A stretch of DNA of 42,634 nt from Microcaldota archaeon. Its GTDB lineage: Archaea > B1Sed10-29 > B47-G15. Made by a program: the position numbers and the translations under genes. Of the stretch, positions 36,559 through 42,000 are shown piece by piece; the stretch's first letter is position 1; every line of letters starts with the position of its first letter. Where the stretch lies: the NCBI GenBank assembly GCA_003660975.1, contig QMVG01000007.1, positions 1 to 42,634 of the forward strand, given 5' to 3'. The notes beneath the pieces were generated by a model that did no database searches, had not been told where the DNA came from, and saw only the letters and a program-made list of their open reading frames with translations.

Positions 36559-36633
36559 GCCTCGGTAGCTTAGCCCGGTTAAAGCGCGCGGCTGTTAACC
36601 GCGAGACCGCCGGTTCAAATCCGGCCCGAGGCG
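36559..36633 (+). tRNA. trnN: tRNA-Asn (GTT)
   Basis: A 75-nt tRNA with acceptor stem GCCTCGG/CCGAGGC, discriminator G36633, a D arm with TAGCTTAGCCCGGTTAAAGC, an anticodon stem CGCGG/CCGCG with loop CTGTTAA (anticodon GTT, Asn), and TPsiC stem GCCGG/CCGGC with loop TTCAAAT. No intron and no encoded CCA. It starts one base after the stop of a 50-codon ORF, so its promoter must lie inside that ORF or the tRNA is cut from the upstream mRNA. Confidence 0.97.
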
Positions 36634-36641
36634 CTTAAAGA

Positions 36642-38669: not shown

Positions 38670-38694
38670 TAGGGGGCATTCGCCCCCTATTTTA
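38670..38694 (+). terminator. Hairpin with T-run after the MFS gene
   Basis: TAGGGGGC-ATTC-GCCCCCTA is a perfect 8-bp, GC-rich stem with a 4-nt loop, followed on the plus strand by TTTTAT. It resembles a bacterial intrinsic terminator, between two convergent genes. On the minus strand no T-run follows. Archaea mainly terminate at T-runs, so the stem may be structural. Confidence 0.5.
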
Positions 38695-39967
38695 TCTTCA
38701 TTAAATTCTTCCTAAGGCACGATAGCGCAAGTGGCTTTATTATTGGATTCTTTTCATCCTTGATTCTCTTCCAGACATCATAATCAAGCAAATTCTCACA
38801 AGAGATGCCTAATTCATCACAGGCTTGCTTCACGGCCTCATAGCTCTCTGTATACTTCATGTAGGCATATACTCTTTTGTAATGCTTCCTGTGGGCTTCC
38901 AAATATTTCCTAACCCTGTCTTTTGTTACAGCAATGTACTCTTTCATCAGCTCCTCTGTCTCCTCCCACTCAGGCCAGTCATAGGCATTAAAAGGATGAT
39001 TGTCTGAAAACTCTATTGGAACCACGCCAGGTGTGCTTACAACTACCCGGTGTATTCTTGGAAATATTTTAAGTTTGGATATTGTTTTGTATATGGCTTT
39101 GTGCGTTGATGATGATGTGTACGGCTTCTTAAAGGAACATGGAAGGAAAAGGAGGATGTCCTTGCCTTTTGGGGCTTTGTAAAACCTCTGGAAGTAATCC
39201 TGCCATACATTGAAGTAAGGGTGCTTCAGGTTCTCCACAGAAGCTCCCTCTATCAGCAGCTGCTTCTCAGCTGGAAACTTTGGTCTGAATGCGTAGTTTT
39301 GGGCATCTGTTTCTATTTTTGGATTGTCTTTGTAAGGCGCTACGATTTCTTCAAACTCCTCAGGAGAGAGAGGCCTCCACTTCCCATTTACCCAATCATC
39401 AAAGAGGGGGGCCTTGGAATGTGGGAATGTATTTATCAAAACTATTGAGTCACTGTATTTCAGAGCAAAGTTAACGCTCTTCTCCAAATCTTTTTTGATG
39501 TCCTTAGAAAAGGGCATATTTACCATGAGATATGTTCTCACCTTGCAATTGTTCCTGTGCAATGTCTCAACTGCTTCAAGATAGTGTTTTATCCTAAATG
39601 GTTTTTGGTATTTCTCAAGAATCTCATCATCCGCGACTTCAAGACCTATGGCCACTGTTAGGTTCAAACCCTTGAAGGTGCTTAAGTTTTCATCTGTTAT
39701 GTATTGAGGTATCGACTCTATTATAAGGTTTTTGACGCCTTTGCTTTTGAGCTGTTTAGCAAACCAGTCCCTGAACTCCAATGGAAATTGCTTGTCATCA
39801 AGAAAAGAACCGCTTGAAAAGACTTTTACGGTGCTGTCCAAATTTAAAGACTCCACTTGCTTCTTCATTTTGTCTATGTCAACAGGGAACTCTAGCCTTC
39901 CCCAGCCACAAGCGTAGCACTTTCCCCATGAGCACTTTCCAGAAGACAGTATGATAACAGTTGTCAC
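38687..39967 (-). CDS. RaSEA-ArcS-like fusion, archaeosine synthesis
   Basis: The 426-residue protein has an N-terminal radical SAM part (about 1-245) beginning TTVIILSSGKCSWGKCYACGWG with a C-x4-C-x2-C cluster site like RaSEA. The C-terminal part (about 265-400) starts with FLPCSFKKPYTSSSTH, matching the PC-x3-KPY-x2-S-x2-H signature of the ArcS lysine-transferase (DUF5591) domain. ArcS and RaSEA together turn preQ0 at tRNA position 15 into archaeosine and are normally two proteins. The start is GTG 39967 overlapping the TGA of ksgA. It ends against the terminator hairpin. Confidence 0.85.
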   Translation of the reverse strand: MTTVIILSSGKCSWGKCYACGWGRLEFPVDIDKMKKQVESLNLDSTVKVFSSGSFLDDKQFPLEFRDWFAKQLKSKGVKNLIIESIPQYITDENLSTFKGLNLTVAIGLEVADDEILEKYQKPFRIKHYLEAVETLHRNNCKVRTYLMVNMPFSKDIKKDLEKSVNFALKYSDSIVLINTFPHSKAPLFDDWVNGKWRPLSPEEFEEIVAPYKDNPKIETDAQNYAFRPKFPAEKQLLIEGASVENLKHPYFNVWQDYFQRFYKAPKGKDILLFLPCSFKKPYTSSSTHKAIYKTISKLKIFPRIHRVVVSTPGVVPIEFSDNHPFNAYDWPEWEETEELMKEYIAVTKDRVRKYLEAHRKHYKRVYAYMKYTESYEAVKQACDELGISCENLLDYDVWKRIKDEKNPIIKPLALSCLRKNLMKIK

Positions 39968-40725
39968 TGCCTCACCTGCTTGTATAGCGATCTTAGATCA
40001 TTGATATCAAGAGAGCGCACTTTTCTCGTGTCATTTATCTCCTTGGAAAAGGCAATCTTAACTGCGTTTTTCACGTCTTTATTCTTGTATCTAAAAAGCT
40101 CCCTGACAAAGTCATCAAATGCCTTATCCTTCTCAACACCTTTTTTCCTCAATCTGATAACAGCACTGTCAACCTTTGGCATTGGGTAAAAAGAGGATTT
40201 ATTGACTACTTCCATCATTTTGGCATCATAATAGTAATTGACCATTACGCTCAATCTCCCGTAATCTGGGTCTCCTGCTCCTGCAAGCATCCTTTCAGCA
40301 AACTCTTTTTGGTATGTAATGACTGCCAAGTCAAAGTCATAATCTAAAAGCTTGAATGTTATTGGAGCGCTTGCACTGTATGGAATGTTCGAAACTACCT
40401 TCGTGAATGAAGGCAGCTCCACTTTCAAGAAATCATCAAAAATAAAGTCAATGTTTTCATAAGCTGAAAGCTCGCTTTTTAACACTGGCTCCAATCTCCT
40501 GTCCTTTTCAACAGCGATTACTTTAGCTGCTTTCTCAGCTATCTTCCCGGTCAAGAAACCAAGACCTGGCCCTATTTCAAGAACAACATCGTCTTCTTTC
40601 AGCTCTGCATATCGTATCATCCTGTCAATAAAGCCCTCGTTTATTGCAAAGTACTGGTCCAAAACAGGAGATGCTCTAAAATTATATTTAGCCTCTATCG
40701 TTCCAATTCTGGACTTCAGGTCCAT
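39964..40725 (-). CDS. ksgA: 16S rRNA dimethyladenosine transferase (KsgA/Dim1)
   Basis: The 253-residue methyltransferase (ATG 40725; a GTG at 40734 is possible and would overlap the DUF655 stop) has the SAM site LEIGPGLGFLTG and the catalytic NIPYSASAPI. It dimethylates two adenines near the 3' end of 16S rRNA. It follows DUF655 in the usual archaeal L21e-rpoF-DUF655-ksgA order, but the next gene is the RaSEA-ArcS fusion rather than a HemK-type methyltransferase. Confidence 0.94.
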   Translation of the reverse strand: MDLKSRIGTIEAKYNFRASPVLDQYFAINEGFIDRMIRYAELKEDDVVLEIGPGLGFLTGKIAEKAAKVIAVEKDRRLEPVLKSELSAYENIDFIFDDFLKVELPSFTKVVSNIPYSASAPITFKLLDYDFDLAVITYQKEFAERMLAGAGDPDYGRLSVMVNYYYDAKMMEVVNKSSFYPMPKVDSAVIRLRKKGVEKDKAFDDFVRELFRYKNKDVKNAVKIAFSKEINDTRKVRSLDINDLRSLYKQVRQ

Positions 40726-40730
40726 CCCAA

Positions 40731-41297
40731 TCACGGCCTCTTTATCTTTGGGTTTTTAACAAACAAATAGTACTTGCAGTTTCCTTGCAGTTCTTCCAGT
40801 ATCCTGTCAACTATTACCCTCTTTGGGTCAGGCATCAGGTTTATCCTCTCGGATATCTCTTTAAAGGATTCAAAATTTTTCTTCTCCCTCTCGTCAAGTA
40901 TGTCAAACATGTGCTTCTTGCCAACGCCTGGCAACAGCTCCAAGGAGTGCTGCCTTATTGTTATTGGACCTGCCTTATTGAAGAAATCGACAAATTCCTT
41001 TTCTCTTTGCTCGACCATCTCGTTAACCACATCTCTCAATTCATTTCTTGCTGTGGCTGTTAACCTAGAAAAGTCAAGCTTCCCTTTTATGTACTGAATC
41101 TTGTCTCTTTTTTCCTTTCCTATATATACTCTGTCGCGAAGAGAAAGCTTCACGCCTGGCTTAACGCTCAACTCAAGAAGGGTGAAGTATTTTTCTCCCA
41201 GAGCTTGCGCTATGGCTTCCTTCTTATAAGAGGAAGCATATCCCATTGGGAGAAAGTCCAATACAATTGCGTACTCTTCTCTAAACAATTCATCCAC
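40731..41297 (-). CDS. DUF655 family protein
   Basis: The 188-residue protein begins MDELFREEYAIVLDFLPMGY, the DUF655 N-terminus, with an OB-like segment (VKPGVKLSLRDRVYIGKEKR, about 46-65) and a helix-hairpin-helix-like LELLPGVGKKHMFDIL (about 118-133). DUF655 is nearly always between rpoF and ksgA in archaea and probably binds RNA or DNA, but its role is not known. Its ATG lies 11 bp after the rpoF stop. Confidence 0.9.
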   Translation of the reverse strand: MDELFREEYAIVLDFLPMGYASSYKKEAIAQALGEKYFTLLELSVKPGVKLSLRDRVYIGKEKRDKIQYIKGKLDFSRLTATARNELRDVVNEMVEQREKEFVDFFNKAGPITIRQHSLELLPGVGKKHMFDILDEREKKNFESFKEISERINLMPDPKRVIVDRILEELQGNCKYYLFVKNPKIKRP

Positions 41298-41307
41298 CCT
41301 TCTGTTG

Positions 41308-41646
41308 TCATAGCTTTTGCACTATCTCAAGTATTTTTTTTATCTGAGGCTCTTTTAAATCGAACCTGATCTTTTCAAATATCAGTTTTACCTGCTCTTT
41401 ATTTGTTGGTTTAACATCCACTATCTTCACTGCGGTTTTTTCATCTATTCCCATGGCTGTCAGCTCGTTTATAGCTTCCTTTACCTTCTTCGATGAGCTT
41501 TTTCCAAACTCCTTGGCATAATCAAGCGTAACCTTTTGCTCGTAGGTCAGCTCTCCAAATTCCTTTTCCTGCTTTTCAAGTATTTTTTTTACCTCTGTGA
41601 GAGGTATGTATTTTTGTCCTATAATCTCCTTTCCTATCATATACAT
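41308..41646 (-). CDS. rpoF: RNA polymerase subunit Rpo4 (RpoF)
   Basis: The protein of about 112 residues matches archaeal Rpo4/Rpb4: an N-terminal MIGKEIIGQKYIPLTEVKK strand/helix and a C-terminal HRDC-like helical part (EAINELTAMGIDEKTAVKIV then KEQVKLIFEKIRFDL). It forms the polymerase stalk with Rpo7. The ATG at 41646 overlaps the L21e stop (TGATG); the next ATG at 41640 is a close alternative. Normal length. Confidence 0.9.
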   Translation of the reverse strand: MYMIGKEIIGQKYIPLTEVKKILEKQEKEFGELTYEQKVTLDYAKEFGKSSSKKVKEAINELTAMGIDEKTAVKIVDVKPTNKEQVKLIFEKIRFDLKEPQIKKILEIVQKL

Positions 41647-41942
41647 CACTTCTGCGCTGTTAGATGAACAGGGTGCACAAGCACTTTCTTCTTTGCTTCT
41701 ATATCAGATACCTCCACATAATAACAATCTCCCTGCTTCCCTTTTATCACTCCTGTTTTTCCCCAAAACCTTCTGTGGGGCCTCCCATTGTGAACAGAGC
41801 TGTCGACTGTTATGTGCACCCTTTGGCCTGTCTTAAACTCTTGTATGAATTTATTAACATTAGGTATGCCTTTTTCTCTAACCCTTTTTCTAGCCTTGCT
41901 TCTAGTTTTTGCCATCGGTCCCTTATGTCTATGCTTAACCAT
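41646..41942 (-). CDS. rpl21e: 50S ribosomal protein L21e
   Basis: The start is ATG 41942 (MVKHRHKGPMAKTRS) with GGAGG 7 nt upstream; an upstream TTG at 41948 is less likely. The 98-residue protein has the L21e core GQRVHITVDSSVHNGRPHRRF (about 41-60) and the GKTGVIKGKQGDCYYVEV segment. First gene of the four-gene rpoF-DUF655-ksgA-archaeosine operon. Confidence 0.95.
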   Translation of the reverse strand: MVKHRHKGPMAKTRSKARKRVREKGIPNVNKFIQEFKTGQRVHITVDSSVHNGRPHRRFWGKTGVIKGKQGDCYYVEVSDIEAKKKVLVHPVHLTAQK

Positions 41943-42000
41943 AAGCAATCCTCCTACACTCCTTTATTTTTGTGTTAAGTTAGTATTTAAAACAAACACC

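Follow-up and report, generated by a model that had tools for sequence, protein, structure and literature searches.

RaSEA, the radical SAM enzyme that works together with ArcS in the last steps of the synthesis of archaeosine, a tRNA modification of archaea, is said to have been identified by Yokogawa et al. in 2019. In Thermococcus kodakarensis, lysine is transferred by the ArcS-RaSEA complex only, and archaeosine is then formed by RaSEA (PMC11298593). This complex consists of two non-covalently associated chains and contains a full-length ArcS. ArcS acts on the preQ0 nucleoside, and the lysine transfer depends neither on the L shape of tRNA nor on a particular sequence (PMC11298593). The archaeal gene described here encodes the same two cooperating catalytic modules, but places them in one chain. 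In the literature searched, which did not include the 2019 RaSEA paper, no description of an ArcS-RaSEA fusion was found, and an earlier mention is possible.

The window analysed is a 42,634-nucleotide stretch of DNA (contig QMVG01000007.1) from a small DPANN-type archaeon of the Microcaldota. Its features of interest are laid out as follows:

38687..39967, minus strand: fused RaSEA-ArcS gene, 426 aa; its GTG start overlaps the stop codon of ksgA
39371..39964, minus strand: RaSEA-like radical SAM half, aa 2-199, equivalent to TIGR01210 positions 15-229 of 313
39908..39934, minus strand: CX4CX2C motif of the iron-sulfur cluster, whose C12, C17 and C20 do not vary among 37 fusions
39206..39370, minus strand: connecting stretch, aa 200-254, in the position taken in stand-alone RaSEA by its C-terminal part (PPWLWS..., RGPHNCxxC, CxC)
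38795..39205, minus strand: half with the DUF5591 / ArcS core for lysine transfer, aa 255-391
39101..39142, minus strand: ArcS signature PCSFKKPYTSSSTH (PCx3KPYx2Sx2H), aa 276-289
39964..40734, minus strand: ksgA (16S rRNA dimethyladenosine transferase), operon gene upstream of the fusion
40731..41297, minus strand: DUF655 protein, operon gene upstream of the fusion
41308..41649, minus strand: rpoF (Rpb4-like RNA polymerase subunit), operon gene upstream of the fusion
41646..41948, minus strand: ribosomal protein L21e, which opens the L21e-rpoF-DUF655-ksgA run
36559..36634, plus strand: tRNA-Asn(GTT) with G15 at window position 36573, which the pathway may use as a substrate

The fusion gene terminates the L21e-rpoF-DUF655-ksgA run, its GTG overlapping the TGA of ksgA by four bases (GTGA, 39964-39967). 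The initial annotation had embedded the gene in this operon, which is right for the window but does not extend to the family: the setting is confined to close relatives around the window's order, and a specific tie of the fusion to the L21e-rpoF-ksgA operon is rejected. The tRNA-Asn is the single tRNA of the window, and G15 is present in it.

On the encoded protein, Pfam finds a Radical_SAM domain at aa 24-156 (3e-11) and DUF5591 at aa 255-391 (1.6e-17, 64 bits vs a cut-off of 26). The top NCBIfam match is to RaSEA (TIGR01210, 6.4e-30, aa 2-199, model positions 15-229 of 313), and the next matches are to two ArcS models (1.8e-19 and 5.7e-18, aa ~221-390). Both halves score under the curated equivalog cut-offs, at 104.5 bits vs 212 for TIGR01210 and at 70 vs 600 and 65 vs 440 bits for the ArcS models (NF040592 and NF053620); the TIGR01210 cut-off of 212 bits is reached in none of the 46 genomes tested. 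The probability that the two-domain match arose by chance is negligible. The fusion of a RaSEA-like radical SAM half with a DUF5591/ArcS half in one protein is thus real, as are the other parts of the initial annotation's description of it: a RaSEA-like cluster site at the N-terminus, the ArcS signature in the C-terminal half, and the loss of the TGT-like N-terminal and PUA C-terminal domains, neither of which is found in the protein by Pfam. An assembly or frameshift artefact is ruled out, since dozens of assemblies carry the fusion at full length and it is split only in one (G017).

The AlphaFold2 model of the fusion, built on an alignment of 24 sequences, has a pLDDT of 91.7 and a pTM of 0.85. 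Its Foldseek matches include the radical SAM proteins Elp3, viperin and lipoyl synthase on the one hand, and the DUF5591 protein AF0587 (2q07) on the other. AF0587 shares the DUF5591 fold, but is a 306 aa chain with no radical SAM domain. A sequence-profile search concurs with these fold matches and adds one to queuine lyase (6p78, 4e-12). The C-terminal domain matches DUF5591 both by sequence and by fold, contrary to one of the two outcomes that the initial annotation had named as refuting its reading. In the searches made, no RaSEA structure was found in the PDB.

In 37 distinct fusions, the invariant positions include the three cysteines of the CX4CX2C motif (C12, C17 and C20), which align with RaSEA cysteines, and P276, C277, K281, P282, Y283 and S286 of the ArcS signature. 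C277 and the three cluster cysteines are the sole invariant cysteines of the fusions. The final H of PCx3KPYx2Sx2H is kept in all aligned fusions except L025:6001-7299 and L026:6001-7296, which have W instead. These two full-length fusions come from MAGs titled Desulfurococcales; such labels may be unreliable, and the titles suggest either lateral transfer or mislabelled bins.

The KxFxSGSFLD, ES(R)PE and GLE motifs known from stand-alone RaSEA are retained in the RaSEA half, whose likeness to TIGR01210 also covers CxnCxxC, K(V/I)(F/Y)xSGSF(L/F)D and K-G-F. Unlike RaSEA, this half is joined to DUF5591 and scores below the cut-off, and its match ends at position 229 of the 313 in the model, so that the C-terminal ~85 model positions are missing. 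The absent part bears PPWLWS and, in most of the stand-alone RaSEAs aligned, RGPHNCxxC...CxC, which is not seen in the fusions. With ArcS (archaeosine synthase subunit alpha, NF040592/NF053620) the fusion shares the DUF5591 core and its PCx3KPYx2Sx2H signature. It differs from ArcS in lacking the TGT-like N-terminal domain and PUA, in being joined to radical SAM, and in having a core nearer to stand-alone DUF5591 proteins. Beyond what had been claimed before, the RaSEA half is itself trimmed, the family is widespread and conserved, and its frequent neighbor is arcTGT.

Full-length fusions are present in 44 of the 297 archaeal genomes scanned, across many families, and one more genome, G017, carries the fusion as two fragments that both lie at contig ends. 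Among GTDB loci with the fusion, titles include Aenigmatarchaeota, Diapherotrites, Nanohaloarchaea, Micrarchaeota and Altiarchaeota. Within the window's phylum, the fusion occurs in 16 of 19 genomes and TGT also in 16 of 19, genus g12 having neither. Separate RaSEA and ArcS genes, which the initial annotation had proposed looking for and whose presence was its other refuting outcome, are found neither in the host (89.7% complete) nor in the 44 other fusion genomes. In these 45 genomes, other TIGR01210 matches reach at most 44 bits and mostly cover an ELP3-like stretch, and secondary DUF5591 matches occur only in G112, being arcTGT or below the cut-off. An archaeal-type TGT is encoded by 43 of the 45 fusion genomes vs 3 of 25 small genomes without the fusion; of the remaining comparison genomes, 7 of the 25 have a bacterial-type TGT and 15 have no TGT. 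The Fisher value for this co-occurrence (7e-13) is only indicative, because the 25 genomes were hand-picked (small, and free of fusion, RaSEA or ArcS in earlier scans) and relatedness was not corrected for. The bacterial-type TGTs (410-447 bits) belong to the small fusion-less archaeal genomes G034, G055, G064, G086, G106, G185 and G220, in line with the queuosine genes reported in DPANN (PMC8204110).

The host genome (1.33 Mb in 130 contigs, 89.7% complete) has the fusion as its sole DUF5591 and sole TIGR01210 match, with no second RaSEA or ArcS found, although for this genome alone a gene may have been missed. It encodes one TGT, of 561 aa (C1:152542), which is archaeal: it scores 494 bits on TIGR00432 vs a cut-off of 350, but 95 bits on the queuosine-type model TIGR00430, whose cut-off is 307, and it carries PUA-type matches at its C-terminus. 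The arcTGT expected for the pathway is therefore present. A true QueC was not found in this 89.7% complete genome, the top score being 23 bits. There is one YhhQ/Vut_1-family carrier (C2:1972, 131 bits), whose preQ0 substrate is assigned from its family only. Among the 19 genomes of the window's phylum, the sole true QueC (249 bits) is G008:C16:20966-21595, and a YhhQ-type carrier is found in three (G000, G009 and G011).

Linkage to arcTGT is the strongest independent indication that the fusion acts in archaeosine synthesis. In 18 of the ~37 distinct loci with long flanks, arcTGT lies at most 4 kb from the fusion gene, always head-to-head, and in several of these 18 the two genes are directly adjacent. 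The pair in L017 was scored as convergent only because the 5' ends of its stop-to-stop ORFs overlap. A gene resembling M24 (creatinase/Xaa-Pro peptidase) by eye, represented by L094:60-1262 and its homologues, is near the fusion in 21 loci.

Quick, unrooted trees were built for both halves. In the tree of the N halves, 49 fusions group as a single clade set apart from 17 RaSEAs (SH-aLRT 100), and the C halves also form one clade (SH-aLRT 92). Since each half forms a single clade, the trees fit a single ancient fusion event. The C-half clade joins the mini-ArcS of genome G040 (88) and then the stand-alone proteins of family f36 (99), outside full-length ArcS, a placement that is provisional because of long branches. 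The G040 locus (L052:1376-3986) is an operon that holds, in this order and in overlapping reading frames, a YhhQ-like protein (identified by eye from sequence), RaSEA and the mini-ArcS. The latter is a stand-alone DUF5591 protein of 216 aa in a 219-aa open frame, downstream of yhhQ and overlapping raSEA. It is a minimal DUF5591 core with 40% identity to the C half of the window's fusion, and it likewise adjoins RaSEA; the difference is that the genes are unfused and that this RaSEA retains its C-terminal Cys motif. The G040 genome has arcTGT and no full ArcS was found in it, a 559-aa candidate having turned out to be arcTGT. The G040 pair is the unfused counterpart of the fusion. The f36 proteins (L054:1968-2666, L089:1590-2297 and L090:1622-2383) are stand-alone DUF5591 proteins of 232-254 aa with PCx3KPYx2SxxH. 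One of their bearers, G047, also encodes a full 714-aa ArcS and RaSEA, and because some of them coexist in this way with both enzymes, they may have a different role. Near the f36 gene in L054 and L089 lie genes that, judged by eye, encode an aminotransferase-like protein and a RecA/KaiC-like ATPase.

From the observed sequence, predicted fold, conservation, gene complement and linkage, we propose, at a probability of about 0.86, that the fusion is a single-chain archaeosine synthase, its chemistry being assigned from homologues and gene context. Modeled on the homologues, the two reactions and the order in which they occur would be the following. The arcTGT encoded elsewhere in the genome would replace G15 of the tRNA by preQ0, which, given the lack of QueC, is probably imported via the YhhQ-type carrier. 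Next, the DUF5591 half at the C-terminus would add the lysine side-chain amine to the nitrile of preQ0-15, yielding preQ0-Lys. The N-terminal radical SAM half, holding a [4Fe-4S] cluster on C12, C17 and C20, would generate a 5'-deoxyadenosyl radical and cleave the lysine part, so that the formamidine of archaeosine remains. The fusion would thus be the ArcS-RaSEA complex made permanent, that complex being the one required for lysine transfer in Thermococcus. Since ArcS can do without the L shape of tRNA and without a particular sequence (PMC11298593), a permanently fused enzyme that has no PUA domain agrees with this scheme.

The two steps might also be carried out differently. Because the DUF5591 branch is separate from classical ArcS and the C-terminal cysteine module of RaSEA is lost, another amine donor could be used, or radical cleavage could proceed without an auxiliary metal site, so that tRNA position 15 would carry archaeosine or a 7-deazaguanine that is related to it and not yet described; we consider such changed chemistry unlikely. 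It is quite improbable that the same two reaction types serve another target or amine donor and yield a different 7-deazaguanine derivative. The C half does branch with stand-alone DUF5591 proteins and not with canonical ArcS, at least one of the three f36 proteins seen (that of G047) coexists with full ArcS and RaSEA, and the RaSEA half has shed its Cys-rich end. Yet arcTGT is nearly always present and often a neighbor, the fusion genomes have no other ArcS or RaSEA to finish archaeosine, RaSEA in G040 has no ArcS-like partner other than the stand-alone sister and arcTGT, and the lysine-transfer signature is intact.

The shortening of the RaSEA half (model 15-229 of 313) could be taken to mean that a single half is active and the other is a scaffold: the protein might, for instance, transfer lysine while its radical SAM half has decayed, or the opposite might hold. 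Decay would have erased the motifs of the half concerned, whereas the cluster cysteines, the GSF/GLE-type motifs and the ArcS signature are all invariant over very divergent fusions; decay of one half is therefore disfavored, and we regard it as very unlikely. The match of the family profile to queuine lyase 6p78 (4e-12), which also acts on a 7-deazaguanine, would suit an N half that resembles queuine lyase and serves in base salvage as a radical SAM enzyme, with a DUF5591 domain attached. But RaSEA is by far the best family match of the N half, and the host encodes the archaeal TGT for G15 (TIGR00432, 494 bits), not the queuosine TGT (TIGR00430, 95 bits vs 307), which leaves this reading with hardly any probability. 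The minimal single-chain archaeosine synthase proposed in the initial annotation is the reading supported by the gene complement and the arcTGT linkage, with catalysis attributed by homology.

As a single-chain archaeosine synthase, the fusion would define the minimal parts of the reaction, without the TGT-like domain, PUA or the C-terminal module of RaSEA. One chain of ~430 aa would be a convenient target for studying the structure and mechanism of the radical step. Under curated cut-offs this protein is called as neither RaSEA nor ArcS, and it is likely to be the enzyme that finishes archaeosine in many DPANN-type archaea with neither of the textbook genes.
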